This document shows, piece after piece, positions 3,640 through 23,110 of a stretch of 64,000 nucleotides of DNA; position 1 is the stretch's first letter, and every line of letters starts with the position of its first letter. The DNA is taken from assembly GCF_000718165.1 (NCBI RefSeq), contig NZ_JOEY01000022.1, positions 191,784 through 255,783 of the forward strand, given 5' to 3'. This DNA is from Streptomyces fulvoviolaceus (GTDB lineage: Bacteria > Actinomycetota > Actinomycetes > Streptomycetales > Streptomycetaceae). Both the position numbers and the translations under genes were made by a program. Below the pieces are notes generated by a model. The model was not told the DNA's origin and did not search any database. It saw only the letters and a list, made by a program, of their open reading frames with translations.

Positions 3640-4269
3640 TCAGGCGACAGCCGTCCCCAGGGGCGGACCGCGAAGGGTGATCGCGTGGACGAGAAGGAGA
3701 AGGCGCGGCGCCCGGTCCGAGCGACGTCGACGCGCGCGGAGGCGCGGGCGGTGCGGGATGGCGGGCAGCGCGAGCAGCAGCCGTAGCGGCGCCGCCAGCC
3801 ATCCGGCGACGGCCCGCAGGATGCGGAACGCCGCCCGCTCGCCGTGCGCCAGCCACAGGCCGCACAGCAGTGCGGCCAGCAGGTGGGCGGCGAGCATGCC
3901 GGACGAGGAGGTGCCGTCCCCCGCCGAGGTCCCCATGTGGGACATGTCCATGGAGCCCATGCCACTCCTGTGCATGGACTCCATGTGCATCGCGCCCATG
4001 TCAGGGGCTGCGGGCGCGGGTTGCGCGAGGGAGAACGCCGAGTGGAGCAGCGTCTGGACGGTGACCACGACGGCGACGATCAGCGGAAGTCCGCGCTCAC
4101 GGCCGGCCAGACACCAGCCCGCGGACCCGGTCACGACCAGGCCCGCGGCCAGTGTCCAGCCGGGGACGTGACGGCCGGACATCAGGACGTGGCCCAGGGC
4201 GGCGAGCAGCACACAGACGGCGGCGAACACCGCGGCCCGTAGCGTGCGGGAACACCACCCTGCTGTCAT
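3640..4269 (-). CDS. Met/His-rich four-helix membrane protein (copper-type locus)
   Basis: About 209 residues. I chose ATG 4269 because a GGGAGGA ribosome site sits about 9 bases upstream; an in-frame ATG at 4287 has none. Hydrophobic helices fall near the N-terminus (LRAAVFAAVCVLLAALGHVL), near 40 and 60, and near 125. Between the third and fourth lies a loop very rich in Met and His (MGAMHMESMHRSGMGSMDMS), of the kind that binds Cu(I). The family is unfamiliar to me. It is clearly related to the product of 5109-5702: both share the N-terminal LRAAVFAA...VLLAA...H pattern and the G-W-L-x-G-R-E-R loop. The two flank a YcnI gene. Confidence 0.75.
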   Translation of the reverse strand: MTAGWCSRTLRAAVFAAVCVLLAALGHVLMSGRHVPGWTLAAGLVVTGSAGWCLAGRERGLPLIVAVVVTVQTLLHSAFSLAQPAPAAPDMGAMHMESMHRSGMGSMDMSHMGTSAGDGTSSSGMLAAHLLAALLCGLWLAHGERAAFRILRAVAGWLAAPLRLLLALPAIPHRPRLRARRRRSDRAPRLLLLVHAITLRGPPLGTAVA

Positions 4270-4359
4270 GGCGCCACATCCTCCCATCCGGCATCGGCGA
4301 TCACGTGTCGATGAGGAAAATTCTCATGTCCCCGCCCCTGTCCCCGTCTCCGTCTCCGC

Positions 4360-5070
4360 TCACCGCGAGGTGCGGCTGCGTACGACGGCGAAGGCCGCCG
4401 CCGCGAGGCCCAGCGCCCCCACGACCAGCCCGCCGATGCCGAGGCCGCGCGCGGTCGAGTCGCTCGCGGAGTCCGCCGACTCCGCGGAGCCCTTGGAGGT
4501 CGTGGACGCGGCGGCCGCCGAGCTGCCGCTCGCCGTCAGCTTGAGGACCGGTGCCGGGTTCTCCGGCTCCTCGTCGCCCTGCGCGGCCTCCTCGATCCAG
4601 CGGACGACCTTGCCGTCGGAGTAGGTCTGCAGGGTCTTGAAGGTGAGCTGCGCGGTGTCGTCGGGGAGCTGGCCGAAGGCGACGTCGAAGTCCTCGTACT
4701 GGCCCGGGCCGACCTTGCCGCCGGTCCAGGTGATCTCGGAGACGGCGTCGGTGATCGTGCCGTCGTCCGTCTTGACCGGCGTCTTGAGCTTCGTGTCCGT
4801 CACCTTGGCGGTCCAGCCGTCGTGCGGGGAGACGAGCACGCCGAGGAGGGGGTGGTCGGTGGGCAGGAAGAGCTGCACCTTCGTGGTGCTCGCGGTGTCG
4901 CTCTCGCTGGGGACGCGGAAGGTCAGGGCGCCGTCGGTGGCGCCCTTGGCGTAGCTCTCGGGGTGGACGGTGACGTGCGAGGAAGCGACGCCCGCGGCGG
5001 TCAGGACGCCGATGGCGGCCAGTGCGGTGACGACACCGGCGCGGCACAGGGTGGTGCGTGCGGAAGACAT
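4360..5070 (-). CDS. YcnI family (DUF1775) copper-associated protein
   Basis: A 236-residue exported protein. A signal peptide with A-S-S-H cleavage context leaves the YcnI-defining histidine near the mature N-terminus (SSHVTVHPESYAKGATDGAL). The DUF1775 beta-domain follows to about residue 165 (WTAKVTDTKLKTP, then ISEITWTGG-like SEITWTGGKVGPGQYEDFDV). A Ser/Ala linker and one C-terminal transmembrane helix end in VVRSRTSR, so it is anchored outside the membrane. In Bacillus the domain binds Cu(II) and sits beside CopCD-type YcnJ. Here the neighbours are two Met/His-rich membrane proteins instead. The start ATG at 5070 precedes the only sensible signal peptide; frames further upstream are unrelated. 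Confidence 0.9.
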   Translation of the reverse strand: MSSARTTLCRAGVVTALAAIGVLTAAGVASSHVTVHPESYAKGATDGALTFRVPSESDTASTTKVQLFLPTDHPLLGVLVSPHDGWTAKVTDTKLKTPVKTDDGTITDAVSEITWTGGKVGPGQYEDFDVAFGQLPDDTAQLTFKTLQTYSDGKVVRWIEEAAQGDEEPENPAPVLKLTASGSSAAAASTTSKGSAESADSASDSTARGLGIGGLVVGALGLAAAAFAVVRSRTSR

Positions 5071-5108
5071 GGGTGGGTGGATCTCCGTACTGAAGAGGGG
5101 GGTCGGGG

Positions 5109-5702
5109 TCAGATCGCGTACGGAATCCCCGTGGGCGGACCGCGCCGCTGGACCGCGTGCCGCAGCAGGAGGCCGCGGAGTGCTCGCGGGCCGTCCGCGG
5201 ACGGTCGTACGAACCCGGGCGCGGCCGGAACGGCCCGCGCTCCCCTCAGTACCTGCCACCAGGCGGCGAGCCCCGGTACGAGCGTGGCGGCCCGGCGCAG
5301 CAGCGACCACAGCGCGGCCTCGCCGCGCCGCAGCCACCAGGTCAGCAGGACGGCGGCCGAGATGTGGGCCGTGGTGGCGTGGGGGGTCAGGGCGTGCGGG
5401 TGCGCCGCCGCATGCATCATGCGCATGCCGTGCATGACCGTCATAGTGTGCGGCCGTACTGCCCCGAACGCGACGTGCAGCCCGCCCTGGGCCGTGAGCG
5501 TCGCGCCGCCGATGGACGCCAGGGACCGCTCCCGGCCGCCGAGCAGCCAGCCGGCCGTGAAGACCGGCGCGAAGCCGGCCACCTGTGTCCACACCGGCGG
5601 CGCCATGCCGGTCGCCAGCGCGTGTCCCCCGGCGGCGAGCAGCACGCACAGCGCGGCGAACACCGCCGCGCGCAGGCTCCGTACCGCAGGGGACGCCCTC
5701 AT
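5109..5702 (-). CDS. Met/His-rich four-helix membrane protein, relative of 3640-4269
   Basis: About 197 residues from ATG 5702, which has GGGAG 11 bases upstream; GTG 5720 in the same frame is possible. Four hydrophobic helices are visible (RSLRAAVFAALCVLLAAGGH first). The periplasmic or cytoplasmic loop before the last helix is rich in Met and His (HTMTVMHGMRMMHAAAHPHA). Sequence pattern and topology match the gene on the other side of ycnI, so the pair looks like an old duplication around it. A copper handling role is inferred from composition and context. Confidence 0.7.
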   Translation of the reverse strand: MRASPAVRSLRAAVFAALCVLLAAGGHALATGMAPPVWTQVAGFAPVFTAGWLLGGRERSLASIGGATLTAQGGLHVAFGAVRPHTMTVMHGMRMMHAAAHPHALTPHATTAHISAAVLLTWWLRRGEAALWSLLRRAATLVPGLAAWWQVLRGARAVPAAPGFVRPSADGPRALRGLLLRHAVQRRGPPTGIPYAI

Positions 5703-5750: not shown

Positions 5751-8700
5751 TCAGTAGATGTCGCGCACATAGCGCTTGTCGGTGGCGAGTTGCTTCACGT
5801 ACGCCGCCGCCCCGGCCGCGTCCAGACCGCCGTGGACGACCGCGATGTCCCGCAGCGCCTCGTCCACGTCCTTGGCCATGCGGGAGGCGTCGCCGCAGAC
5901 GTAGAAGTGGGCGCCGTCCTGGAGCCAGGACCACAGCAGGGGGCCGTGTTCGCGCATACGGTCCTGGACGTAGACCTTGGCGCGCTGGTCCCGGGAGAAG
6001 GCCGTGTCCAGACGGGCGAGGGTGCCGTCGGCGAGGAGGCCGGTCAGCTCGTCCTCGTAGTAGAAGTCGGTGGCCCGGTGCTGTTCGCCGAAGAACAGCC
6101 AGTTCGGGCCGCGGTCGCCGCGGGCCCGGCGCTCCTGAAGGAAGCCGACGAAGGGGGCGACTCCGGTACCGGGACCGACCATGACCATGGGCGTGGCCGA
6201 GTCGGCGGGCGGGCGGAAGTGCGGGGAGCGCTGCACATGGACCGGGACGGGGGTACCCGCGGCGGCGTCGGCGAGGAAGGGCGAGCAGACGCCGTGGCGC
6301 GGCCTGCCGTGCAGGTTCTCGTAGCGCACGACGGAGACCGTCAGCGAGACGAGGTCGGGGTCGGTCAGGGGGCTGGACGATATGGAGTACAGGCGCGGCT
6401 GCAGGCGCCCCAGGGTCTCCACCCACTCCTGCGGGTCGGCCTTCACGCCGTACTCCGTGATGACGTCCACGGCCTGCCGGCCCCAGGTCCACTTGGCCAG
6501 CTCGTCCTTGTTGTCCGGACGCAGGAGCTTCTTCAACTCCCGTGGGTCGCGGGTGCGTTCGGCGACGAACCGGAGCAGGCCGGAGCTGATCCGGGTGATG
6601 TCCAGGTGCCGGAGCAGGGCCTCGCCGAGGGCCACTTCCCCTACGCCGTTCACGTCCACCGCGGCCTCGGCGTCGAGGGCGCTGACCGTCAGCCACTCCT
6701 CGACGAGGTCCGTGGAGTTGAGCGGGCGGATACCGAGGGCGTCGCCGGCCTCGTACACGAGCGGGGTGTCGCTGTCCCGGGTGTCGAAGGTGAAGCGGCG
6801 GACCTCCTTGCCCGCGCCGGGCAGGCTGAGCAGGCGGTTGCCGGTGAGACGGGCGATGACGGGGGCGGGCTTCTTCGGACGCGGGGGCGCGGCGGGGAGG
6901 GCCGGCGCGGGGAGAGCCGGCGTGGTGAGAGCCGCCGCGGGGGCTGCTTCCGACGTGCCGGACAGTGCCGTTCCCGGTGTGCCGGACAGTGCCGTGAGGA
7001 CCTGGTCCAGCCAGCCGTGGGCCACGTCCTCGTAGTCCGGTTCGCAGTCCATGCGCGGGGCCAGCCGCAGCGCGCCGAGCTCGTCCAGGCGCTGGTCGAG
7101 GCGGCGGCCGTGGCCGCAGAAGTCGTCGTACGACGAGTCGCCGAACGCGAGGACGGCGTAGCGGCGGCCCTCCAGGCGAGGGGTGTCGGGCGCGGCCAGG
7201 GTCTCCCAGAAGCCGCTGCCGTTGTCGGGGGCGTCGCCGTCGCCGAAGGTGCTGGTGATCAGCAGCAGGTCGGCGCCGGACGGCAGGGCCGCCAGATCGG
7301 CCTCGTCCATGCCGACCAGGGACGTCGCGTGTCCGCTCGTGGCGAGCCGGTCGGCGGTGGCGACTGCGAAGTCCTCGGCGTTGCCGGTCTGCGAGGCCCA
7401 CAGGATGACAACCTCGCGGCGCAGCACGGTGGTTGAGGGCTGTGCGGCGGTAGTCCTGGAGTACATCCCGGCGAGCGTGCCGTTCACCCACAGGGCGTGC
7501 GCGGGGCTGAAGGGCGCGTCGGGCGGGAGGACCGGCACGCCGGGCGCGCCGGCGGGGATGCCGGCGAGGAAGCCGACCAGGTACTGGCGTTCGTGGTCGG
7601 TGAGGACGGGCGGCGGGGTGGGTTCGAGCCCGAAGACACTCGCGGCGGAGGGGGTGACGGGAGCAACGTCCGCCACAAGAGCCGGAGTTGCTGTCGCCAC
7701 CTCCGGCGCCCGCACCATCTCCGGCGTCCGCACCGTCACCGGCGTCGGCGCCTTCGTCAACGACACCGCGCACACCTTGAACTCGGGCTGGAAGGACAGC
7801 GGGTCCACGGCGTCGCTGGTCACGGCGTTGACGCTCAGGTACTCCCCGAACAGGTCGTTCCAGTGGAACGGCGCGAAGCAACACCCCTGCCGCACCCGGT
7901 CGGTGACGACGGCGGGCAGCACGGCCCGCCCGCGTCGCGAGGCCACTTCCACGGAGTCGCCGTCAACCACACCGAGAGCCACGGCGTCCTGCGGATGCAG
8001 CTCCACGAACGGCCCGGGGTCGAGCTTGTTCAGCTTGGGCACCTTCGCCGTCTTGGTCAGCGTGTGCCACTGGTGCTGGAGCCGTCCGGTGTTCAGGACG
8101 AACGGGTAGTCGTCGTCCGGCATCTCGGCCGCCGGGATGTGCGGGCGGGCGAAGAAGACGGCACGGCCGCTCGCGGTGGGGAAGGCGAGCGCGCCGTCCT
8201 CACCGACGTACCGGATGGGGTTGCGGTCGGGCCCGTCCGTGCTCGCGGCCGGCCACTGCACGGGCGTCTCGCGCAGCCGCTCGTAGGTCGCCCCGCGCAG
8301 GTCCCAGCCGGTCTTCGGGTTCCAGGCCCGCTTGATCTCCTCGAAGACCTCCTCGGCACTGTCGTACGAGAACCCCTCCTCGTACCCCATCTCGCAGGCC
8401 ACGGCCGCGATGATCCGCCAGTCGGCCATCGCCTCGCCGGGCGGGTCGGCGGCGGGCTGCGCGAGCGTGAGGTTGCGCTCGCTGTTGATGAGGACGCCCT
8501 CGGTCTCGGTCCACAGGGCGGCGGGCAGCACGACGTCGGCGTACGCGTTGGTCTCGGTGTCGGCGAAGACGTCCTGTGTGACGACGAACTCGGCGGCCTC
8601 CAGGCCCTCGATGACCGTGCGCCGGTTGGCGACGGAGGCGACCGGGTTGGTGCAGATGATCCAGCAGGCCTTGATCTCGCCGTCGGCCATCTTCTGGAAC

Positions 8701-9884
8701 ATCTCGATCGTGCCCTTGCCGACGCCGTCGGCGCGGAGGGTGCCGGACGGCAGCTCCCACAACTCCTCTACGAAGGCCCGCTCGTCGTCGACGAGCACGG
8801 ACCGCTGGCCGGGCAGGCCCGGACCCATGTAGCCCATCTCGCGGCCGCCCATGGCGTTGGGCTGGCCGGTGAGGGAGAAGGGGCCGCTGCCGGGGCGGCA
8901 GATGGCGCCCGTGGCGAGGTGGAGGTTGACCAGGGCGTTGGTGTTCCAGGTGCCGTGTGTGGACTGGTTGAGGCCCATGGTCCACAGGCTCATCCACTCA
9001 CCGGCTGAGCCAATCAGCCACGCGGCCTCCCGGATGTCGTCCTCGGCGAGGCCCGTGATCTCGGCGACCACGTCCGGCGGGTAGTCGGCGAGGAACTCCG
9101 GTATCGCCTCCCAGCCCTCGGTGTGCGCGGCGACGAAGTCGGGGTCGGTGTGGCCGTTCTCGTGCAGGAGGTGCAGCAGGCCGTTCAGCAGCGCGAGGTC
9201 CGTGCCGGGCTTGATCTGGAGGAACAGGTCGGCCTTGGCGGCGGTGGCGCTGCGGCGCGGGTCCACGACGATCAGCTTCGCGCCCGCCTTGACCCGCTCC
9301 ATCATGCGCAGGAACAGGATCGGGTGGCAGTCGGCCATGTTGGAGCCGATGACGAAGAAGACGTCGGCCTTGTCGAGGTCCTGGTACGAGCCGGGCGGGC
9401 CGTCGGCGCCGAGCGACAGCTTGTAGCCGGTGCCCGCGCTGGCCATGCACAGCCGGGAGTTGGACTCGATCTGGTTGGTGCGGACGAACCCCTTGGCCAG
9501 CTTGTTCGCCAGGTACTGGGCTTCCAGGCTCATCTGCCCGGACACGTAGAGGGCGACCGCGTCCGGTCCGTGCTCGTCGATGACGGCCCGCAGCCGGCGC
9601 GCGGTCCGGCTGATCGCCTCGGCGGCGGGGGCCGGGGCGGGCTCCTCGCCGCGCTCGGGCCGCACGAGTGCGTTCGCGAGCCGTCCGGGGGCGGCGAGCA
9701 TGTCGGCGGTGGTGGCGCCCTTGGTGCACAGGCGGCCGAAGTTCGCGGGGTGCTCCTTGTCGCCGGAGGCCTTCAGGACCGTACGCCGTCCGTCCGGTCC
9801 GACTCCGATGTCGAGGAGCATGCCGCAGCCCACACCGCAGTACGAGCAGACGGTCCGCACCTTCGGCGAGTCGGGCACGGCCAC
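5751..9884 (-). CDS. Bifunctional assimilatory nitrate reductase / diflavin reductase fusion
   Basis: A 1377-residue fusion. The N-terminus has the 4Fe-4S motif of molybdopterin oxidoreductases (Cys13-X2-Cys16-X3-Cys20, and Cys53 in FGRLCTKG). The Mo-bisMGD domains follow to about 700, including the [10 protein letters not shown] and [15 protein letters not shown] motifs seen in NasC/NarB nitrate reductases. After a Pro/Ala linker come a flavodoxin domain ([25 protein letters not shown]), a second Ala/Pro linker, an FAD domain ([10 protein letters not shown]) and an NADPH domain ([20 protein letters not shown]) ending in YVRDIY, as in CysJ. It should carry electrons from NADPH to nitrate in one chain in the cytoplasm. 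I chose GTG 9884 because AGGAGG lies 5 bases upstream. No nitrite reductase or nitrate transporter is in the window. Confidence 0.92.
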
Positions 9885-10108
9885 GCACTCCTCCTGAGAC
9901 TTGGCTACTTCGATCTCCCGTGACGGTACGAAATGCCCATTACACGGATGTCTCCCGGGCCGGTCGTCAGGGGTTACGCCGGGCGCACACCGGCGGGGCC
10001 GACGATGTGAGCGGTCCAAATGGGCTAAAGATGAACATACCAGGCATACAAAACTTGGGACATTCGTTTACTTGAATCATTCGTGTTTAGGGCGCTAGGT
10101 TGGTCGCC
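9885..10108. promoter_or_regulatory. Divergent promoter region between nitrate reductase and furA
   Basis: A 224-base gap. The half next to furA is unusually A/T-rich and contains a direct repeat of CATTCGT at 10061-10067 and 10078-10084 (17-bp period) with TTGAATC between. Streptomyces FurA/CatR proteins autoregulate through sites in this position, so this is the likely operator. In the half next to the nitrate reductase, GAAAT-N6-TACAC (from about 9930) is a weak partial match to a GlnR box; I do not call it. Confidence 0.5.
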
Positions 10109-10555
10109 ATGACCGAGCCCCAGACCCCGAACACCGCCGATGAGCTGCGCGGTGCCGGCCTGCGGGTGACGGCCGCCCGCGTCGCACTGCTCGAGACCGT
10201 CCGGGACGGTGATCACCTCGGCGTCGAAGCGATCGCCTCCGGTGTGCGTGATCGCGTGGGCCACATATCGCTTCAAGCCGTGTACGAGGCACTCCACGCC
10301 CTCAGCACGGCGGGACTCGTCCGTCGCCTCGAGCCGCCGGGCAGCCCGGCCCGGTTCGAGGGACGCGTCGGGGACAACCACCACCATCTCGTGTGCCGCT
10401 CGTGCGGTGTCGTCGTCGACGTCGACTGCGCGGTCGGCCACGCCCCCTGCCTCACCGCGGCCGACGACCGCGGCTTCGCGATCGACGAGGCCGAGGTCAT
10501 CTACTGGGGCCTGTGTCCCGACTGTTCCCCCCAAGCCACTACTTCAGCACCGTGA
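10109..10555 (+). CDS. furA: Fur family regulator, FurA/CatR type
   Basis: A 148-residue Fur protein. The N-terminal winged helix (LRGAGLRVTAARVALLETVR; HISLQAVYEALHALSTAGLV) is followed by the dimerisation/metal domain with the HHH motif (DNHHHLVCRSCG) and two CxxC pairs (CRSC, CPDC) for structural zinc. It lies directly upstream of katG, the arrangement of furA-katG / furS-cpeB, where it represses both genes and releases them on peroxide. There is no clear ribosome site before ATG 10109, so the transcript may be leaderless; TTG 10100 is a less likely start. Confidence 0.9.
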   Translation: MTEPQTPNTADELRGAGLRVTAARVALLETVRDGDHLGVEAIASGVRDRVGHISLQAVYEALHALSTAGLVRRLEPPGSPARFEGRVGDNHHHLVCRSCGVVVDVDCAVGHAPCLTAADDRGFAIDEAEVIYWGLCPDCSPQATTSAP

Positions 10556-12793
<2,238 letters not shown>

Positions 12794-12966: not shown

Positions 12967-13003
12967 GTCAAGCAACTTCACGGCGCGCAGGACGGATATC
13001 GCT

Positions 13004-13561
13004 ATGGACGCCGCACCCCGCATCACCGCCACCACCGCGGCCCCCGGCCCCCTCGCCTCCTTCGCCCGCTTCGTGCTGTGCGGCGGCGGCATCGGGGTCC
13101 TGTCCAGCTTCGCGATCTCGCCGCTGGCCGGGCTGATGCCCTGGGCCGTGGCGAACGCCGTGATCACCGTCGCCTCCACCCTCCTGTGCACCGAGCTCCA
13201 CTCCCGCTTCACCTTCGGGACCGGGCAGCGCGCCGGATGGCGACAGCACTGGCAGTCCGCGGGCTCGGCCACCGCCGCGTACGTGGTGACCTGCCTCGCG
13301 ATGTTCCTCCTGCACGCGGTGCAGTCCTCCCCCGGGACGCTGACCGAGCAGATCGTCTACCTCGGCGCCTCCGGGCTCGCGGGCATAGGCCGCTTCCTGG
13401 TACTGCGCGTGTTCGTCTTCGCCGGCAACCGCTCCACGAAGACCCCGGCCCAGGTCCGGCGGAACAGCGGCACGGTCACCTGGACCCTCCCCACCCCGGT
13501 CCAGGCGATCACCCGGCCCCAGGTCCGCAGCACCGACTTCCTGCTCGCCTCGACCGCCTGA
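13004..13561 (+). CDS. GtrA-like four-helix membrane protein
   Basis: A 185-residue protein with four hydrophobic helices (about 20-42, 46-64, 85-105, 118-140). The pattern ARFVLCGGGIGVLSSFAI at the start and ELHSRFTFG after the second helix match GtrA/DPMS-type proteins, which are thought to move polyprenyl-linked sugars across the membrane. The tail after the last helix is soluble and about 45 residues long. It is monocistronic: a katG terminator precedes it and a convergent gene ends 46 bases away. An A/T-rich inverted repeat upstream suggests control by a repressor. Confidence 0.65.
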   Translation: MDAAPRITATTAAPGPLASFARFVLCGGGIGVLSSFAISPLAGLMPWAVANAVITVASTLLCTELHSRFTFGTGQRAGWRQHWQSAGSATAAYVVTCLAMFLLHAVQSSPGTLTEQIVYLGASGLAGIGRFLVLRVFVFAGNRSTKTPAQVRRNSGTVTWTLPTPVQAITRPQVRSTDFLLASTA

Positions 13562-13607
13562 CCGACTCCGCCGGGCTCGAGAAGCGTCGGGAGCTCCTGG
13601 CCGCCGG

Positions 13608-14501
13608 CTAGGCGTCGGGCAGCGACGCCGCGAGGTGCTCCCACGCCGCGTGCACGTCCTCCCCGACCATCCCGAACTGCGTGATGACCGCGACGCAGCG
13701 CCCGTCCTCGTCGTCGAGCTCGATCGCCGAGGTCGGGCCGTGCGCCGCCGTGGACCGGACCAGGTGGCACGCCCGGACGCCCGCGAGGTCGATCTCCACC
13801 GAGCTCTCCGCGATCGCCGCGAACACCCGCCCGCCGACGGTCCGGTCGGTGACATGCACGGGGCCGCCGCACGCCTGCATGGCCGCCGGGGCGAACACCG
13901 CGACGCCGATCGGCAGCCCGACGGAGCAGACGTGGTCGAGGACAGCGGACACGACGCCGGCCTCGATCTCCCGGTGCTCGCCGCGGTACCGGTCGAACGC
14001 CCGGCGCCGGGCGGCCCCGCCGTCCGCGAGGACCGCGTCGAGCTGCGCGAGCTGGTCGCCGTTCTCCCACGCGGGCACCTCGGGGGGCGTGGACGGTCCG
14101 TCGGCCCGCGCCCCGGCCTCGACCGTGCCGGCGAGCCCGGCCAGCAGCCGGTCCCCCTCGGAGAGCAGCCGTCCCTGGTGGACGGTCCGGCCCTCCGCGT
14201 CGAGAAGGCGCACGGAGACCGTGCTCTCGTCCCGCGCGACCACGGCCGCCTCGATCCCCTCGGCGTCGAGGCGGAGCGCGATCGATCCCGGGTGGACGGC
14301 GAACGCGTCGCCGCGCAGGCTCGGCACCGCGTAACTGCCGGCCTGGTCGATCCGCGCGACCGACCCCCCGGTGACCGCCTGGACGTACTGGAAGAGCGTC
14401 AGGCACCGCGCCAGCTCCGGCATGCGTGGGTCGATCAGCCGCACGCTGCCGTTCCGCCTGGGGCAGCACCCCTCGAACCCGCAACCGTGATGGTCCGTCA
14501 T
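13608..14501 (-). CDS. HemS/ChuS-like haem-handling protein
   Basis: A 297-residue protein that I read as a divergent two-lobed HemS/ChuS protein. The first lobe has STVSVRLLDAEGRTVHQGRL, matching the S-L-Q-F-F-D-x-x-G-x-A-V-H-K pattern of ChuS. The second lobe ends with TSAIELDDEDGRCVAVITQF and then a W-x-x-L-x-x-x-L-P tail, again as in HemS. HemS proteins bind and open haem for iron release and need an electron donor. The N-terminus is Cys-rich (CGFEGCC). It follows the diflavin reductase gene by 2 bases, so translation is coupled. Similarity is moderate and the axial haem ligand cannot be assigned by eye. Confidence 0.6.
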   Translation of the reverse strand: MTDHHGCGFEGCCPRRNGSVRLIDPRMPELARCLTLFQYVQAVTGGSVARIDQAGSYAVPSLRGDAFAVHPGSIALRLDAEGIEAAVVARDESTVSVRLLDAEGRTVHQGRLLSEGDRLLAGLAGTVEAGARADGPSTPPEVPAWENGDQLAQLDAVLADGGAARRRAFDRYRGEHREIEAGVVSAVLDHVCSVGLPIGVAVFAPAAMQACGGPVHVTDRTVGGRVFAAIAESSVEIDLAGVRACHLVRSTAAHGPTSAIELDDEDGRCVAVITQFGMVGEDVHAAWEHLAASLPDA

Positions 14502-14503
14502 GC

Positions 14504-16216
14504 TCAGTACACGTCCCGTACGTAGCGCTTCGCCCGCCGCAGATCCGCGAGGTACTCCGCCGCGTCGTCCTCCCCGCGTCCGCGCTGCTCGGCGATGACG
14601 CCCAGCAGGGCCGCCTCGACGTCCTTCGCCATGCGGGAGGCGTCCCCGCAGACGTACACGTGCGCCCCGTCCTCCAGCCACGCGTACAGCTCGCGCGACC
14701 GCTCCCGCATCCGGGTCTGCACGTAGACCTTCTCGGCCTGGTCCCGCGAGAACGCCAGGTCGAGTTCGGTGAGCACGCCCCGCTCCCGCAGCGCGGTCAG
14801 CTCGTCCTCGTACACGAAGTCCGTCTCGCGGTGCTGGTCGCCGAAGAACAGCCAGTTGCGCCCGGAGGCACCCCGCGCGGCCCGCTCGTGCAGGAAGCCG
14901 CGGAAGGGGGCGATGCCCGTGCCGGGGCCGATCATGACCATGGGGGCGTCGTCGGCCGGGACGCTGAAGGAAGCGTTCGGCTGGAGGTAGATGCCCACGG
15001 TCGAGTCCGCACCGACCCGATCCGCCAGGTACGTCGATGCCACGCCCTCGTACCTGTCGTACCGCACGGACGCGACGGTGAGGTGGATGCTGCCCGGGTG
15101 GGCCAGCGGGCTCGACGAGATCGAGTACTGGCGTGCCTGCAACGGCCGGAGAAACGGCAGGAGTTCGGCCGTCGACGGTGCCCTGGACCCGGCGTCCCGG
15201 AGCAGGTCGAGCAGGTCCCGGCCCCAGAGCCAGGAGTCGAGGTCGCCGCGGTCGCCGTGCGCGACGACCGCGGCCAACTCGCTTGCGGGCGCCCGCTCGA
15301 CGAGGTCGGCGATCAGCTCCTTCGACGGCGTGCGGATCTCCCGTTCCGTGCGCAGGAGTTCGGCGGTCTCCTGGTCGCCGCTCGAACCCAGGTGCTCCAG
15401 CAGCGCTCCGACCAGACCGTCGTCGTTCACCGGTACGACGGCCAGCGCGTCGCCCGCCTCGTACGTGATGCCGCTGTCGCCGAGGTCGAACTCGTAGTGG
15501 CGGATCTCCTTCGCGCTGTGCGGGGCGGACAGGAGCCGGTTGGTGGCGAGCCGGGACGGGTAGGGGGTGCGCTTGTTCCACTGGGAGCGGGGCTTCTTCG
15601 GTGCCTCCGCGGCACCCGTCCCCTTCGCACCGGTCTCGGCGGCGAGACGCTCCAGCACCGCCGCCGTCCACTCCCCCGCAGGCTCCTCGAAGTCGACGTC
15701 GCAGTCGACGCGTTCGTGCAACCGGGTCGCCCCGAGCTGTTCCAGGCGGGTGTCGATGAGCTTCGCGGCCTGGCAGAAGTCGTCGTAGCCACGGTCGCCG
15801 AGCCCGAGGACCGCGTACTGCAGGCCCTCCAGCCGGGGTGCGGTGTCGGACTGCAACGCCTCCCAGAACAGCCCGGCGTTGTCGGGCATCTCGCCCTCGC
15901 CGTACGTCGAGGTGACGACGATGACGTGGGACATCGCGGCGAGTGCCTCGGGGGTGACGTCGTCGAGGGCGGTGGCCCGGCCGCCGAGGCCGCGGGCGCG
16001 GGCACCGGCGACGACGTCGTCGGCCACGAGTTCGGCGTTGCCGGTCTGGGTGCCGATCAGCACGTCGATCGTCGCCGCGGGCGCGTCGGCGCCGGCACTG
16101 TCCCGGCGTCCTGCGGCCGCGATACCGGCGATGAACCCGGCAAGCCAGGACTCCTGTTGGGCGGAGAAGGGCGCGTCGGCCGGGATGAGGGACCCGGTCG
16201 GGGGCATGACGGTCAT
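14504..16216 (-). CDS. CysJ-type NADPH diflavin reductase
   Basis: A 570-residue reductase. The flavodoxin domain at about 50-195 shows the FMN loops (GTQTGNAELVADD; STYGEGEMPDNAGLFW). The FAD domain has [14 protein letters not shown] near 345. The NADPH-binding domain has MVMIGPGTGIAPFRGFLHER and [12 protein letters not shown], and the chain ends YVRDVY like CysJ. The same architecture forms the C-terminal half of the nitrate reductase fusion at 5751-9884, so this could be its detached relative. Its ATG overlaps the end of the GltB-like gene by 4 bases and a HemS-like gene follows 2 bases after its stop. It therefore probably serves one or both of those partners rather than a sulfite reductase, which is absent here. 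Confidence 0.88.
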   Translation of the reverse strand: MTVMPPTGSLIPADAPFSAQQESWLAGFIAGIAAAGRRDSAGADAPAATIDVLIGTQTGNAELVADDVVAGARARGLGGRATALDDVTPEALAAMSHVIVVTSTYGEGEMPDNAGLFWEALQSDTAPRLEGLQYAVLGLGDRGYDDFCQAAKLIDTRLEQLGATRLHERVDCDVDFEEPAGEWTAAVLERLAAETGAKGTGAAEAPKKPRSQWNKRTPYPSRLATNRLLSAPHSAKEIRHYEFDLGDSGITYEAGDALAVVPVNDDGLVGALLEHLGSSGDQETAELLRTEREIRTPSKELIADLVERAPASELAAVVAHGDRGDLDSWLWGRDLLDLLRDAGSRAPSTAELLPFLRPLQARQYSISSSPLAHPGSIHLTVASVRYDRYEGVASTYLADRVGADSTVGIYLQPNASFSVPADDAPMVMIGPGTGIAPFRGFLHERAARGASGRNWLFFGDQHRETDFVYEDELTALRERGVLTELDLAFSRDQAEKVYVQTRMRERSRELYAWLEDGAHVYVCGDASRMAKDVEAALLGVIAEQRGRGEDDAAEYLADLRRAKRYVRDVY

Positions 16217-19200
16217 GCGGTCACCGTCTCGGTCGGGGCCTGCGGGGCACGGCGGGAGGCGATGTCCTCCAGCGCAGCGTTCGCAAGCAGCTCGTCGAAC
16301 CGGGCGGCGCGGACGCGGCCGGCGTTCTTGGTGGTCTGGTGGATGATCCAGCCGTAGGTGCCGGGGGCGTCCACGCTGAGGTTGTTGCGCTGCTTCAGCG
16401 CGCGCTTGTAGTCGTCGAGGCGCTTGATCGCGATGAGTGTGGCGAGTTCGTCGTCGTCGAACCGCTCCAGCGTGCCGCGCAGATACTTCACGACCCGCTG
16501 CTTGACGAAGAAGTCCTCGGTGAGCACGAGGTTGCGGACGGCCTCGGCGACCCGAGGGTCGTCCGGGCCGGTCGCGCCCGGCACCCGCTTCAGCGCCAGG
16601 TCCTGTGCGACGCCGAGCACCGTGTACGACGACAGCAGCGAGAACATGTCGTCACTGCCCTGGTCGCCGAAGGCCGGGGCACGGCCGCCGAGCACGGTCC
16701 GCCGGTCGCGGTAGTCGACCTTGAACGCGCGGAGCTTGTCCGTCGCGATCGAGGTCGCCAGCTCGTCCAGCAGCTCGCTCCGGGTCGCGGCGCCGAGGAT
16801 CTCGCCGGCGTCCTGGTAGAGCAGCAGCGCGCGGGGCATTCCGCAGTACACGTGCTGCCGCTCGGTGTCCCAGTCGTGGAGCAGCCGGGCGGCCAGCTCG
16901 GAGCCGGTGGCCTCCAAGTGCCATGCCAGCAGCAGCCGTACGGCCTCCTCGTGGAAGGCGCCGTGCCCGGTGTCCGTCACCGGGAACACGAGCAGCGAGT
17001 CGGCGCTCACCCGGCCGGCCAGCTCGCCCGACGGGTCGTACTGATACAGGAACCCGCCGCTCATGCCGTTCCCGAGACCCTTGCCGAAGCCGCCGAGGTT
17101 GAGGACCGTACCGCCGGTCATGTATTCGCAGCCGAAGTCGCCGAGGCCCTCGACGACCGCGGTCGCACCGGAGTTCCGCACGGCGAACCGGTCACCGGCC
17201 TCGCCCTGCACGAACGTCCGGCCGCCGGTCGCGCCGAACAGCGCGAAGTTCCCGACGAGCACGTTGCCACCGCGTTCGGCACTGCCGCCGCCCGGGGCGC
17301 GGACCACGATCCGGCCGCCGCTCTGGCTCTTGCCGACGCCGTCGTTCGCGGTGCCGGTGTGTTCGAGGGCGATGCCGTCGTTGCAGAAGACGCCGTACGA
17401 CTGTCCGGCGGAGCCGGTGGTACGGATGCGGACGGCGCCGTCGACGAGGCGGCGACGGCCGCGGTCGTCGGTGGTGATCGCGGGGGCATCGACGGCGAGT
17501 TGGTGGTTGAGCAACCGCTCGACGTCGATCGAGAGCTGCCCGCCCACCGACTTGTCGCTGTTGCCGAGGTGGATGCCCTCGACGAGCAGGGACGGCTCGC
17601 GCCGGTCGACGAGCGCGGCACGGACGCGTTCGATGAGGGCGTCGTCGGTGGTGAAGTCCTTCTCCAGGTACTCCGGGTCTTCTACGGCCTTCTCGGGCAC
17701 GCGCGCGAGGAGGCGCCGGACGTCGAGGCGGCCGACGCTCGCCGGGTGGTCGAGGAGTTGCAGCAGGTCCGTGCGGCCCCGGGCCTCGCGCAGCGACCGC
17801 AGGCCGAGGCGGGCGAGGATCTGCCGGACGTCGTGCGCGATGTTGAGCAGATACTGCGCCAACGCGCGCGGGTCGCCCTCGAAGGCCTCGGGGTTGGTGG
17901 TGAGCCCGGCGGGGCACTTCACGTTGCAGTTCTTCGCCATGACGCAGCCGAGCATCATGAGCGCGGTCGTACCGAACTCGAAGCTGTCGCCCCCGAGCAG
18001 TGCCGAGGTGACGACGTCGCCGCCGGTCTGGTGCGCGCCGGAACAACGCAGGACGACCTTCTGCCGGAGCCCGTTCGCGACGAGCGCCTGATGCACCTCG
18101 GCGACACCGATCTCCGCCGACCGCCCGGCGTACTTGAGGCTCGTGACGGCCGCGGCGCCCGTGCCGCCGGTGTTCCCGGCGACGTTGATGACGTCCGCGC
18201 CGGCCTTGGCGACACCGACCGCGATGGTGCCGATGCCCTCCGAGGACACCAGCTTCACGATCACCCGGACCCGCGCCGCCTTGCAGTCGTGGATGAGCTG
18301 CGCGAGGTCCTCGATGGAGTACGTGTCGTGGTGCGGCGGCGGTGAGATGAGCTCGATGCCCGGGGTCCCGCCGCGCGCGGCCGCGATGTCGACGGTGACC
18401 TTCGGCGCGGGCAGCTGACCGCCCTCACCGGGCTTCGCGCCCTGGCCGATCTTGATCTCCAGCTCCTGGAGCATCGGGTCGGCGAGGTAGCCCGCCCAGA
18501 TGCCGAACCGGCCGGACGCGAACTGCTTGATCCGGGAGCCGCGGATGGTGCCGTAGCGGGTGTGGTGCTCGCCGCCCTCCCCGCTGTTCGACATGCCGCC
18601 GACCATGTTCGTGCCGTGCGCGACGGCCTCGTGCGCGGTCGCCACGAGCGCGCCGTGGCTCATCGCGCCGGAGGCGAGGGCACGGGTGATCTCATGGGCG
18701 GGCTGGACGTCGTCGAGGGGGACGCTGTCGGGGGCGTTGTCGAGGAGGTTGAGGAGGTGGGCGGCGGTGCCGTTGGCGGTGACTTCGACGCCGTCGGCGC
18801 GCACGGCGAGGGTCTTGGACTCGCCCAGGTGCGCGAGCCCTTCGGCGAGGGCGGCGTGGCGCTCGGCGGCGTCGGGTCCGGGTGCGGTGAGACGCAGGTG
18901 GACGGTGCCCTGCTCAGTGGCGGAGGCGACGACCCCGCGGACCGTGACACTCGCGTTGCCGGTCGTCGAGAACCGTCCCAGCTCCCGCGCGAAGTCCTCC
19001 GCCGTACGCAGCCCCGTCACATCCGCGGGCAGCGCGAGCACGTCACGCAGCGCGGCCGGGCGGCGCGACCGCTCCTCGTGCGTCGTCCGCAGAAAGGCGC
19101 GGTACCCGGGCGTGATCCGGAACGCGTCGATCTCGGCGTCGCTGAGCGCGTCGTACCCCGTGTTCCGGTACGCGGCGTCGGTGATGCCGAAGGCGTCGTC

Positions 19201-21723
19201 GAGCTGGCCGAGGGTGAGCAACCGGAGCGCGTCCGGGTCGCTGGACCGGCCGAACTCCGGCCGCTCCTCCACCATGTCACCGAAGCCGCGCACGGCCGTG
19301 ACACCGAACGAGTGCCCAGCACCGTCCGACCGCTCCTTGAACAGGCCGAGCAGCGGGATCTGTTGCTCGCTCTCCACCGTACGGGCCCGCTCGTGCCAGT
19401 CCGTCGTGGCCTGCGCGATGCGGGCGAACCCGACGCCGCCGACCGGGGCTTCCATGTGCGGGAAGGTCCGCGCGAACACGTCGTCGCGGGTGTCGAGGTA
19501 GTTCGGTTCGAAGAACTCGCCGCCGATGTAGCTCTCGGCGGTGCACAGCCCGACGCGGCCCATGGTCTTCGCAAGGGACTTCTCGGCCGCCTTGCGGAAC
19601 TTCGCCAGCGCCCGGTCGGTCTCGGTGATGTGGCCCGCGGGGGCCGGTGCGCTCGGGTACCTCTCCTCGGCCCGCAGGCGCGCGCTGAGGCTGTAGACGG
19701 CGGCGGCGCCGAAGCCGAGGGCGGTCGCGACGTGGTGCGAGGAAGCCAACTGACCGCTCTCCGCGACGATCGAGACGCGCAGGCGCAGCCCGGTCTCGAT
19801 GAGGCGCTGGTTCACCGCCGCGACGGCGAGGATCACCGGCAGCGGCGCGCGTGTCGAGGAGATCGCCCGGTCGGTGAGGACCGCGATGCCGCCCCCCTCG
19901 GCGGCGAACCGCTCGACGTCGTCGCAGAGCCGCGCGAGCGCGGACCGGAGCGCGTCGGCATTGGCGGTCTCGTCCCCGACCACCGGCTCGTAGAGCATGG
20001 CGAACCGCTCCAGCGGCACGATCCGCTGGTCGCGCAGCCGGACCATGTCCAGGTGCCCGAGCACGGGCGAGGACACGACCAGCTGCCGGCCGCCCGTGCT
20101 CCCGGTCCCGTCGGGCTTCGGGCCGAGGGCGACCCGCATGCTCATGCCGTCGGCCTCGCGGATGCTGTCCAGCGGCGGGTTCGTCACCTGGGCGAAGCGC
20201 TGCGAGAAGTACTTCGCCATGCCGCCCTCGGTGTCGCTGAGCGCGTTGATGGCGTTGCCGTAGCCCATCGCCGAGATCCGCTCCGACCCGTCGGCGAGCA
20301 TCGGGTCGAGCATGAACCGGAAGCTCTCCTGGTTCAGCGCGTACGCCACGTACCGCCCGGCGAGGGTCAGGTCGCCGTCGTACCCGAGCGTCGTCGTGCC
20401 GCGGTAGTAGTCCGGGGCGGGCAGGTCGTCGAGGTTCACGCGGGCCGCGACGAGCAGTTCGCTGTACGGCCGACGCGCGGCGAGGGAGTCGAGCACCTCA
20501 CGTGTCCGCATCCGGCGTCCGGTGCGGTGGTCGACGACGAGCATGCCGCCGACCTCGATACGGCCCCGGTGCACGACGTCCTCATCGGGGAACGCGACCT
20601 GGCCGGCCTCCGACGCCACCATGAGGTACTCGGCGGTCTCGACGGTGCGCAGCGGGCGCAGCCCGAGCCGGTCGAGCCGGGCGCCGATGACGTCCCCGTC
20701 GCTGAAGACGACGGCCGCCGGACCGTCGTTCTTCTCCTCGTACAGCGAGAAGTACTCCAGCATGTCGCGGACGGCGACGGGCAGGGTGCGGTCGTTCTCC
20801 CAGGCGGGCGGCATGAGCGACACGACCGACTCGACGATGTCCAGGCCGTCGTCGAACACCCGGCTCTGCAGCGTCTGGTCGAGCCGGCTGGAGTCGGACT
20901 GCCCGGGCGGGCGCACGATGCTCCGGGTCCGGGCCCGCGCGAGCGCCTCGTCGCTCAGCCGGTTCTTGCGGTCCGTGTTCAGCTCGCCGTTGTGGGCCAT
21001 GAGGCGGAACGGCTGCGCCATGGTCGGGTGCGGCTCGGTGTTCGTGGAGAACCGGGTGTGGAAGTAGAGCGACCGCACGGAGTGCCGGGGATCGCAGAGA
21101 TCACGGAAGTACCCGATGACCTCCCCGGAGTTGAGCCGCCCCTTGAGCACCTGCGTCCGCGCGCTCAGCGACAGCGGGTACAGCCCGGCGTACGCGTCGT
21201 CGTCGGCGTAGGCGACGGCTTCGATCGCGAGGAGCGCCCGGTTGGCGGCCGAGTCGACCTCGTGGCGCTCCCACCCCTCCGGGGCCCGGAACACCCACTG
21301 CACGATGGGCAGTTGATACGGCTGGGCAGCGGGCCGGGCGACGGAGTGGTCCACGGGAACGTCACGGACCAGCACGGCGTCGAAGCCCTGCTCGGCGATG
21401 CTACGGCCGACGAGGTCCACAGCGCCGTCGCGGCGCCCGGCGTCGGTCGGCACGAAGCAGTTGGCGACGCCGAAGTGCCCGGCGCGCAGCTCCTCGCCGG
21501 TGATCGCGGCGAAGAACTCCACCGACAGGTCGACGCTCACGCCGGCGCCGTCGCCGACACCCTCGGCGGACTTGCCGCCTCGGTGCGGGATGGTGCGGAG
21601 CGCTTCGTCGCCCTTGCGGATGACGTCGTGGCTCGGTGCCCCGTCGAGGCGGGTGATGAAGCCGACGCCGCAGTCACTGTGGTCGCGGGCAGGGTCGTAC
21701 AGACCGTTGGTGCTCTGATTCAA
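16213..21723 (-). CDS. GltB-like glutamate synthase large-subunit homologue, divergent and extended
   Basis: An 1836-residue protein, about 300 longer than usual GltB. A 17-residue leader precedes Cys18 (DHSDCGVGF), the position of the glutaminase nucleophile in GltB. Class II amidotransferase features follow (FHTRFSTNTEPHPTMAQPFR; MAHNGELNT). The FMN/synthase domain has GGMSNSGEGGEHH and INVAGNTGGTGAA. The 3Fe-4S cysteines are C-VMAKN-C-NVK-C, one residue shorter than the usual C-X5-C-X4-C. The GXGXG beta-helix domain (FGKGLGNGMSGG) follows, then about 250 extra residues. The start is TTG 21723, with AGGA 9 bases upstream. No GltD is present; a diflavin reductase overlaps the end instead. 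Real glutamate synthase activity is uncertain. Confidence 0.85.
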   Translation of the reverse strand: MNQSTNGLYDPARDHSDCGVGFITRLDGAPSHDVIRKGDEALRTIPHRGGKSAEGVGDGAGVSVDLSVEFFAAITGEELRAGHFGVANCFVPTDAGRRDGAVDLVGRSIAEQGFDAVLVRDVPVDHSVARPAAQPYQLPIVQWVFRAPEGWERHEVDSAANRALLAIEAVAYADDDAYAGLYPLSLSARTQVLKGRLNSGEVIGYFRDLCDPRHSVRSLYFHTRFSTNTEPHPTMAQPFRLMAHNGELNTDRKNRLSDEALARARTRSIVRPPGQSDSSRLDQTLQSRVFDDGLDIVESVVSLMPPAWENDRTLPVAVRDMLEYFSLYEEKNDGPAAVVFSDGDVIGARLDRLGLRPLRTVETAEYLMVASEAGQVAFPDEDVVHRGRIEVGGMLVVDHRTGRRMRTREVLDSLAARRPYSELLVAARVNLDDLPAPDYYRGTTTLGYDGDLTLAGRYVAYALNQESFRFMLDPMLADGSERISAMGYGNAINALSDTEGGMAKYFSQRFAQVTNPPLDSIREADGMSMRVALGPKPDGTGSTGGRQLVVSSPVLGHLDMVRLRDQRIVPLERFAMLYEPVVGDETANADALRSALARLCDDVERFAAEGGGIAVLTDRAISSTRAPLPVILAVAAVNQRLIETGLRLRVSIVAESGQLASSHHVATALGFGAAAVYSLSARLRAEERYPSAPAPAGHITETDRALAKFRKAAEKSLAKTMGRVGLCTAESYIGGEFFEPNYLDTRDDVFARTFPHMEAPVGGVGFARIAQATTDWHERARTVESEQQIPLLGLFKERSDGAGHSFGVTAVRGFGDMVEERPEFGRSSDPDALRLLTLGQLDDAFGITDAAYRNTGYDALSDAEIDAFRITPGYRAFLRTTHEERSRRPAALRDVLALPADVTGLRTAEDFARELGRFSTTGNASVTVRGVVASATEQGTVHLRLTAPGPDAAERHAALAEGLAHLGESKTLAVRADGVEVTANGTAAHLLNLLDNAPDSVPLDDVQPAHEITRALASGAMSHGALVATAHEAVAHGTNMVGGMSNSGEGGEHHTRYGTIRGSRIKQFASGRFGIWAGYLADPMLQELEIKIGQGAKPGEGGQLPAPKVTVDIAAARGGTPGIELISPPPHHDTYSIEDLAQLIHDCKAARVRVIVKLVSSEGIGTIAVGVAKAGADVINVAGNTGGTGAAAVTSLKYAGRSAEIGVAEVHQALVANGLRQKVVLRCSGAHQTGGDVVTSALLGGDSFEFGTTALMMLGCVMAKNCNVKCPAGLTTNPEAFEGDPRALAQYLLNIAHDVRQILARLGLRSLREARGRTDLLQLLDHPASVGRLDVRRLLARVPEKAVEDPEYLEKDFTTDDALIERVRAALVDRREPSLLVEGIHLGNSDKSVGGQLSIDVERLLNHQLAVDAPAITTDDRGRRRLVDGAVRIRTTGSAGQSYGVFCNDGIALEHTGTANDGVGKSQSGGRIVVRAPGGGSAERGGNVLVGNFALFGATGGRTFVQGEAGDRFAVRNSGATAVVEGLGDFGCEYMTGGTVLNLGGFGKGLGNGMSGGFLYQYDPSGELAGRVSADSLLVFPVTDTGHGAFHEEAVRLLLAWHLEATGSELAARLLHDWDTERQHVYCGMPRALLLYQDAGEILGAATRSELLDELATSIATDKLRAFKVDYRDRRTVLGGRAPAFGDQGSDDMFSLLSSYTVLGVAQDLALKRVPGATGPDDPRVAEAVRNLVLTEDFFVKQRVVKYLRGTLERFDDDELATLIAIKRLDDYKRALKQRNNLSVDAPGTYGWIIHQTTKNAGRVRAARFDELLANAALEDIASRRAPQAPTETVTA

Positions 21724-21867
21724 GTGCGGGTCCTGTGAGCGGGTTCCGGCTGGGGGTACCTCCCAGGCCCTTGAGGCACTGGGGGAGGAACGGCCAGGCT
21801 GCGTCGGTGAAGCGCTCGCCGCGGGCGGACCGGTGTGACGGCCGAGGCCCTGAGTGGTTCAAGTATG

Positions 21868-21886
21868 CACGGTAAGGGTTACCTAA
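21868..21886 (-). promoter_or_regulatory. Candidate iron box (DmdR/IdeR type) before the GltB-like operon
   Basis: Read on the minus strand, the 19 bases begin TTAGGTAACCC and end TTACCGTG. They match the DtxR-family consensus (TTAGGTTAG ... CTAACCTAA) at 12 of 19 positions, with the left arm best conserved. The site lies about 145 bases upstream of the TTG start. A haem-handling protein in the operon makes iron control sensible, but the match is only moderate. Confidence 0.4.
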
Positions 21887-21967
21887 CTTCCCCGCAAGTA
21901 TGTGGCCTGCACGTATGCGCCCCGCCACAGTTGGAGAAGCGTCCTCGGGCGTCTACTGCGGAACGCT

Positions 21968-23110
21968 TCACTGCGCTGCCGCTTCGGGTTCGTCCGCCGC
22001 GGACGGGTGGACGTATCTGCCCTCGTTGAACGGGGTGAACCACGAACTGAAGGCGATGGGTGCGACCCCGAGCGCGGCACCCGCGGAGGCTTCGTCGATC
22101 CCGTCCGTCGAGTCGTCGTAGAGCCACTCGTGGTCCATGTCCTCATAGACGCTGTCGGCGAACGCGTCGAGGGCGGCCGACACCTCGTCGTCGAGAAGCT
22201 CGTACAGCTCCAGGGTCATGGTCGCCTGGCTCAGGAGGAACCTCAGGGCGAGTTCTTCGGCGACGCAGCTGAGCTGCTGGAAGCTCCCGTCGGTGAAGCG
22301 GGTGGTCATGGCGATCACCGTCACCAGGAAGCGGCGGGCGAAGTGGGCGTCGTACCGGAGTGCGTACCGGTCGGGAAGGCGCTCCAAGTGCCACAGGGGA
22401 CCCTCGCATTCCGCGACGCTGGCGTCCTCCTGGGTCAGAACCTGCACGTCTTCGAAGAGCTCGTCCACCAGGATGTCGGTCGCGTAGACCAAGGCGCCGG
22501 CGGCGAGTCTGGCGCTTTCCGGCGAGACGGCGAACTCGTCGTCGCCGTCTCCCCTCTCGTCGTCCCCGTCGCCGAGCACGCCGAACTTGGCCAGGGGGAA
22601 AGAGCGCAGTTCAGCCGCCAACCCCAGCATCTGACGGCGCACAGCCGCGGCTTTCGCCTCGGCGCCGTAACCCTCTTCGGTGTCTTCCGGCGCTGGGCTC
22701 TCGGCGTGCCTGGCCTTCCGGGCAGCAGGATCATCGGGCGGGACATCCGGGCCTTCGGCCGCGTCGAGGCTCCTCTTGGCCAGATCCTGGTGCAGCTCGA
22801 CCTCGCACCGCTCGATCGTCCAGTCGGCCAGCAGCTCGGATCGCTCCAGCAGTTCGTCCACGAGCGCCCGTACCGAGTCCTCGGCGAACTCCAGTGCCGG
22901 AGCGTCCACGATGACCTTCAGAAGCGCTCCGCCCGGGTGGACGGCCACGATGGTGTCCAGAAGACCGACTTCCACACCGTCGGGTCCCTCGACGGCCCGG
23001 ACGGAGTCGAATCCGTCCTCGATGAGCGCCACGGCCCCGGCGCGCTGAAGCGGGTCCATCTCCGGAGTGCCCTCCGGGATGCAGGTGTCCACAGTCACTA
23101 CGTACGTCAC
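21968..23110 (-). CDS. Acidic hypothetical protein
   Basis: About 380 residues from GTG 23110, chosen because sequence before it in the same frame loses the composition of the rest. It is acidic, with no signal peptide, membrane segment or recognisable catalytic motif. The N-terminal half contains VTVDTCIPEGTPEMDPLQRA and a short beta-rich domain. The middle carries a charged low-complexity stretch (ERGDGDDEFAVSPES). The C-terminal half is helical and acidic (LLDDEVSAALDAFADSVYED). I do not recognise the family. It ends 245 bases upstream of the GltB-like operon. Confidence 0.6.
   Translation of the reverse strand: MTYVVTVDTCIPEGTPEMDPLQRAGAVALIEDGFDSVRAVEGPDGVEVGLLDTIVAVHPGGALLKVIVDAPALEFAEDSVRALVDELLERSELLADWTIERCEVELHQDLAKRSLDAAEGPDVPPDDPAARKARHAESPAPEDTEEGYGAEAKAAAVRRQMLGLAAELRSFPLAKFGVLGDGDDERGDGDDEFAVSPESARLAAGALVYATDILVDELFEDVQVLTQEDASVAECEGPLWHLERLPDRYALRYDAHFARRFLVTVIAMTTRFTDGSFQQLSCVAEELALRFLLSQATMTLELYELLDDEVSAALDAFADSVYEDMDHEWLYDDSTDGIDEASAGAALGVAPIAFSSWFTPFNEGRYVHPSAADEPEAAAQ

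Follow-up and report, generated by a model that had tools for sequence, protein, structure and literature searches.

Why should a GltB-like protein be encoded beside a diflavin reductase in the place where GltD would be expected? The question is raised by a stretch of 64,000 nucleotides from Streptomyces fulvoviolaceus (assembly GCF_000718165.1, contig NZ_JOEY01000022.1, positions 191,784 to 255,783; hereafter the window), whose minus strand carries three coupled genes in the order GltBL, DifR and HemSL, names coined in this analysis. An initial annotation had proposed a coupled three-gene operon with a candidate iron box, and our analysis confirms that proposal. Sequence comparisons lead us to consider it moderately probable that GltBL and DifR form an iron-repressed, iron-sparing alternative glutamate synthase dependent on reduced nicotinamide adenine dinucleotide phosphate (NADPH), in which DifR would replace GltD. 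The genes and their control elements are as follows, in coordinates of the window.

16213..21723, minus strand: GltBL, a long protein resembling the glutamate synthase large subunit, 1836 residues, TTG start (Pfam domains; orthologues 56-94% identical)
14504..16216, minus strand: DifR, a CysJ-like diflavin reductase of 570 residues (flavodoxin, FAD and NADPH domains)
13608..14501, minus strand: HemSL, a HemS-fold protein of 297 residues without the HemS axial histidine (Pfam, fold model, alignment)
21731..21734, minus strand: AGGA, the likely ribosome-binding site of GltBL, 7 bases 5' of the TTG (sequence)
21871..21886, minus strand: IdeR/DtxR-type iron box TTAGGTAACCCTTACC, core of a 19-mer (matrix score; consensus as given in the available part of PMC8464063)

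GltBL contains the GATase_2, central, flavin mononucleotide (FMN) synthase and GXGXG domains, all four above the Pfam cut-offs. The catalytic Cys of class-II glutaminases, in the motif CGVGF, is present in 84 of 86 GltBL loci; the remaining two are in all likelihood L078 and L096, on contigs that begin inside the gene. By analogy with known GltB, this Cys18 would become residue 1. As three Cys are kept at the Fe-S site, a cluster is still possible. In its four domains, catalytic Cys and three Fe-S-site Cys GltBL is like the large subunit of the GltB-GltD enzymes of Azospirillum and E. coli, whereas it differs from them in adjoining a diflavin reductase, not GltD, in the spacing of the Fe-S site, in an insert, in a C-terminal helical extension of about 195 residues and in changed synthase motifs. 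These parts of GltBL lie at the following positions.

21670..21672, minus strand: codon of Cys18 in CGVGF, the class-II glutaminase catalytic Cys (motif conservation)
17914..17946, minus strand: CX5CX3C at the GltB [3Fe-4S] site, Cys1260, Cys1266 and Cys1270 (86/86 loci)
18799..19077, minus strand: insert ahead of the FMN/synthase domain, about residues 883-975, boundaries approximate (absent in L025 and in the canonical GltB of the same genome)
16216..16806, minus strand: C-terminal helical extension, about residues 1640-1836 (absent from the canonical GltB of the same genome)

The C-terminal extension is predicted to be helical (structure model, mean predicted local distance difference test score 78.3), and no clear match to it was found in the PDB beyond the tail common to GltB. 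GltBL is closer in score to GltB chains (769-790 bits) than to Fd-GltS, the ferredoxin-dependent enzyme (718 bits).

DifR contains the Pfam domains Flavodoxin_1, FAD_binding_1 and NAD_binding_1, and the domain searches found no Fe-S domain in it. Its domain order is that of CysJ, and it passes NCBIfam NF004859 (sulfite reductase subunit alpha; 439.3 bits, cut-off 432). It differs from CysJ in scoring below the cut-off of the CysJ equivalog TIGR01931 (558.8 versus 668.15 bits) and in having GltBL as its neighbour instead of CysI, which was itself not searched for. Only two other DifR-like proteins were found in the same genome, a molybdopterin-oxidoreductase fusion and a 1622-codon frame that matches at 36%. 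The fusion is encoded in the window at 5751-10019 on the minus strand; it has 1422 residues, its reductase part is 46% identical to DifR, and we take its molybdopterin oxidoreductase part to be nitrate-reductase-like. At L025, a locus from another family of the class, HemSL is followed by a fourth gene (4235-5416, minus strand) for an FAD/NADPH reductase of the FNR type, which is 49% identical to DifR and has no flavodoxin domain.

Is the pairing of GltBL with DifR a chance arrangement in one strain? Searching named genomes for the C-terminal extension of GltBL yielded 225 confirmed loci; the best 80 of them were retained, and L025 was added. In all of these 81 loci, which were chosen by GltBL and come from Actinomycetota and Alphaproteobacteria, GltBL and DifR are found together; four of the pairs have one gene cut by a contig end, and in one DifR lies in two frames. 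The pairing of a GltB homologue with a CysJ-type partner in the place of GltD, which had been supposed from the window, holds in 81/81 loci. In the hosts tested, GltD is encoded elsewhere. In the genome of S. fulvoviolaceus (11.58 Mb), contig 3 carries an ordinary gltB and, after it, an open reading frame that presumably encodes GltD, and the GltD family was found above its cut-off in 10/10 hosts tested.

The second line of evidence comes from the promoter. The iron box lies 147 bases upstream of GltBL, and its 19-mer agrees at 13/19 positions with the consensus in the part of PMC8464063 available to us. We built a matrix from 13 boxes elsewhere in the same genome (of 16 box places, the window's own, C7 and C17 were excluded); with it the GltBL promoter scores 22.1 and control stretches at most 8.3. 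The upstream DtxR-type box suspected at the outset is therefore supported, and boxes of this type in the same genome adjoin siderophore and haem-uptake genes, plus some others. A box was called in other loci if it reached at least 10 bits and exceeded all controls of the same locus. On this definition 31 of 77 readable loci carry one, a count that omits L078 and L096 (no upstream sequence) and L086 and L103 (cut downstream). The box-positive loci belong to Streptomyces, Herbiconiux, Microbacterium, Pseudoclavibacter, Corynebacterium (3/4), Nocardia and the genus of L025; with Micropruina, which is outside the 77, and a Tsukamurella plasmid, the box is found in nine actinobacterial genera altogether. 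No box at threshold was found in Leucobacter, Tessaracoccus or two Pseudactinotalea. Of the 25 HemSL loci with a readable promoter, 24 also carry the box; the only one without it is L050 (score 5.0), while seven loci have the box only and 45 have neither. L026-L029 and L032, partly on the same contigs as L044, L048 and L051, were not counted in this tally, and the HemSL and box sets for the tally and the tree test were entered by hand. An independent-pairs test of HemSL against the box on the tree gave four supported pairs and was not significant (median p 0.5), so the association may be mere descent.

Published work gives these features a setting. In GltBD, electrons pass from flavin adenine dinucleotide (FAD) through two [4Fe-4S] clusters and one [3Fe-4S] cluster to FMN, while ferredoxin-dependent glutamate synthase (Fd-GOGAT) accepts single electrons from ferredoxin, as described in an excerpt of PMC8097209. 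In Caulobacter, iron limitation lowers the canonical glutamate synthase (PMC3751524, available section). In a metal-induced iron-starvation response, glutamate synthase falls and flavodoxin rises, replacing ferredoxin, and the fall in iron starvation is also cited for B. subtilis (PMC9938188, quoted passages).

From the sequences we infer a reaction, an electron route, a mode of repression and a role for HemSL. The N-terminal domain of GltBL would free ammonia from glutamine, and the ammonia would pass to the FMN-containing synthase site, where a 2-oxo acid, most likely 2-oxoglutarate, would be reductively aminated. Electrons would run from NADPH to FAD and FMN within DifR and then singly to GltBL, as ferredoxin delivers them to Fd-GOGAT, with the flavodoxin domain of DifR able to take the part of ferredoxin. 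Because DifR is proposed to hand electrons directly to GltBL, GltD and its two [4Fe-4S] clusters would be unneeded, and the enzyme would require at most 3 Fe per protomer versus 11. GltBL would thus be like Fd-GOGAT in being a large subunit served by a one-electron carrier, not by GltD, and would differ from it in having as carrier a flavodoxin domain that is part of an NADPH diflavin reductase. In the window, as in other actinobacteria, iron-loaded IdeR/DmdR1 would repress the operon, and iron starvation, in which cells are expected to run down the iron-rich GltBD, would switch it on. HemSL may play an accessory part in the iron-regulated form, where it could dock the reductase or tune it when a haem-like ligand is present. 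We regard an iron-sparing glutamate synthase as the best reading because the predicted iron repression and the build of the enzyme fit the fall of the canonical enzyme and the rise of flavodoxin in iron limitation. With the exchange of ferredoxin for flavodoxin the system would share the replacement of Fe-S carriers by a flavin carrier under low iron (PMC9938188, in the passages quoted); the difference is that here a whole dedicated isoenzyme operon would be under the iron repressor.

Several observations weigh against this reading. The synthase motif GHDGGTGAS of the canonical GltB of the same genome is GNTGGTGAA in GltBL, and NTGGTGAA replaces HDGGTGAS in 85/86 GltBL loci, the pattern having matched another place in the remaining one. 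KLVSEVG of the same canonical protein becomes KLVSSEG or KLVSTEG in 86/86 loci. The Fe-S motif of that protein is CX5CX4C, so that CX5CX3C, found in all 86 GltBL loci, departs from the canonical form. Since the Fe-S spacing and two synthase motifs are changed, the cluster, the acceptor or the coupling may differ, and since three Cys persist, the need for iron would be lowered, not abolished. Paracoccus sp. TOH plasmid p2 (L120) encodes a DifR relative (47%) near glutamine synthetase genes; within 10 kb of it no gene for GltBL is listed, which suggests that DifR-type reductases also serve other partners. HemSL is dispensable, since several Streptomyces have a decayed copy or gave no match to it. 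Nor is iron control universal, as no box at threshold was found in 28/28 Curtobacterium and 11/11 rhizobial loci. The Curtobacterium promoters score -4.0 to 4.2 with the box matrix, and in some of these loci the top stretch is still at the box position, so a decayed box is possible there.

The changed motifs could also mean that GltBL only descends from glutamate synthase and now works as a reductive amidotransferase whose substrate is a different 2-oxo acid or a compound that forms an iminium, giving a nitrogenous product useful in iron starvation. This would fit the synthase motif changes in 85-86 of 86 loci, the new insert and the C-terminal extension, the score of 1032 with the GltB equivalog NCBIfam NF008730, just below its cut-off of 1047, and the coexistence of GltD in every host tested. 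However, the synthase domain is otherwise well conserved in comparison with the canonical GltB of the same genome, and the GltBL-DifR pair stands without HemSL in most loci. No constant further neighbour was found in the four plasmid loci or the few flanking open reading frames scanned, which is a weak test. We consider this explanation unlikely.

It is less probable still that the operon encodes a stress version of the enzyme, one that avoids oxidant-sensitive [4Fe-4S] clusters and for which the iron box would be one among various local controls. Other candidate controls do exist. In Curtobacterium (L057-L086 and L090) a conserved palindrome, CGGTATACC(G), lies between promoter-like hexamers about 195 bases 5' of the codon for the GltBL catalytic Cys and occupies the place of the iron box in other genera; in rhizobia (L104-L114, L117 and L118) a palindrome TGTnAG-N5-CTGACA or GGTCAG-N5-CTGAC lies upstream of GltBL. 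In the window, a Fur-family gene (10100-10555, plus strand) is followed by a katG-like peroxidase gene (10577-12793, plus strand) near the operon, from which a GtrA-like gene (13004-13561) separates them. Against this explanation, no regulator could be assigned to either palindrome, and the iron box recurs across nine actinobacterial genera.

The initial annotation had suggested haem iron release as a purpose of the trio, on the grounds that the third protein is HemS-like. The likeness itself stands. HemSL exceeds the cut-off of PF05171 (33 bits versus 24) and is modelled as a full two-domain HemS fold along its whole length, although a six-frame PF05171 search of the same genome did not recover it. 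A HemS profile thus matches the third protein and the genes recur together elsewhere, which were two of the three points on which the trio had been expected to stand or fall. HemSL shares with HemS, ChuS and PhuS the tandem-domain fold and the equivalent of Arg102, R77, which is invariant in 20/20 aligned members (equivalence read by eye from the alignment). It differs from them in that its gene lies in a glutamate synthase operon and in that the position of the axial haem ligand (His196/193/209) is occupied by A in 17 members, G in two and T in one, and by His in none of the 20. Haem oxygenase is present in 17/18 hosts (9/9 with HemSL and 8/9 without), and in S. fulvoviolaceus it is encoded on contig 13, next to HtaA and iron boxes. 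HtaA haem-uptake proteins were found in 12/18 hosts, 8/9 with HemSL versus 4/9 without; this trend mildly favours a link to haem, but the hosts are related within both groups, which may explain it. HemSL was found by profile in 27/81 loci, one of these being a fragment, so 26/81 keep it; no HemSL was found in the other 54, two of which (L086 and L103) are truncated at the end of a contig. Three very weak HemSL matches from another search, in G095, G113 and G143, were left aside. HemSL appears to be an accessory, because the axial His is missing, haem oxygenase is usually present and most loci have no HemSL. Release of haem iron by the trio, with DifR giving electrons to HemSL-bound haem and GltBL in a side role, is very improbable and is rejected as the main purpose on the axial ligand, haem oxygenase and HemSL distribution. 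The HemS fold, R77 and HtaA speak the other way, as does the in vitro breakdown of haem by ChuS and by Bartonella HemS when P450 reductase/NADPH is supplied; HmuS without His196 or Arg102, on the other hand, binds haem and does not degrade it (both from the available text of PMC6018153).

One further element lies between the iron box and the GltBL start codon.

21797..21819, minus strand: conserved leader block GCGAGCGCTTCACCGACGCAGCC (cross-locus comparison)

This block has one exact match in the same genome and one with 3 mismatches; it recurs almost unchanged in Curtobacterium and can still be recognised in L025, L092, L097 and L103. It may encode a leader peptide or serve as an operator. 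A structured RNA is not claimed, given that no Rfam match at the gathering score was found in 13000-22600 (weak matches only, E 1.8-9.1) and that RNAalifold gave 8 pairs, none with two-sided change, hence no covariation. A promoter scan of 21700-22000 found no sigma-70-type site.

How did the operon come to be where it is? Intact trios are found at L025, where identities are 56-66% for GltBL, 50% for DifR and 30% for HemSL, and at four further loci of the window's own order (L026-L029); L032, also of this order, has an intact pair with a decayed HemSL. The trio is thus a recurring unit, as expected at the outset. The GltBL-DifR pair also occurs on four annotated plasmids, two of which, from Tsukamurella and Ketogulonicigenium, carry HemSL; on the conjugative Ketogulonicigenium plasmid the trio adjoins a TonB siderophore receptor and siderophore uptake genes. 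GltBL is rare, with matches in 8/293 genomes of the order, all of one genus (7 strong, that of the window included), and in 6/296 genomes of a phylum sample, 2 of them clearly over the length. It is yet 84% identical over its full length between Streptomyces and Curtobacterium. In a quick LG+G4 tree of 51 hand-picked rows and an outgroup, in which 24 of 49 inner branches are left open and the outgroup branch is very long, Curtobacterium falls inside a Streptomyces-Curtobacterium clade (support 99) and rhizobia group with Nocardia (weaker, 84). The rarity, the high identity across genera and these placements suggest horizontal transfer. In five genomes of the same genus (L030, L031, L033, L034 and L035), only short pieces of the operon, mostly of HemSL, are present in the stretches read, and in L034 a GltBL piece adjoins a HemSL piece; to judge from these remnants, this is repeated loss of the operon. 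In another of the five, 2.7 kb that are 90% identical to an intact strain run straight into the final two thirds of HemSL; about 11.9 kb that the intact strain has are therefore missing.

In the open-licence literature searched, no description of a GltB-diflavin operon was found. We tentatively suggest, as a possibility that goes further than the iron-sparing enzyme itself, a third glutamate synthase architecture beside GltBD and Fd-GOGAT: a horizontally spread GltBL-diflavin enzyme whose Fe-S site is altered and whose new C-terminal domain serves docking, together with a HemS-fold subunit whose haem ligand is gone and which may now act in regulation or electron transfer, linking haem or iron status to nitrogen assimilation in the iron-regulated form. 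Glutamate synthase is a central enzyme of nitrogen assimilation and among the iron-rich enzymes that are cut when iron is short. If our reading is true, this operon would show how nitrogen assimilation continues on little iron, would amount to a natural experiment on whether GltD's [4Fe-4S] chain can be spared, and would assign the HemS fold a new role.

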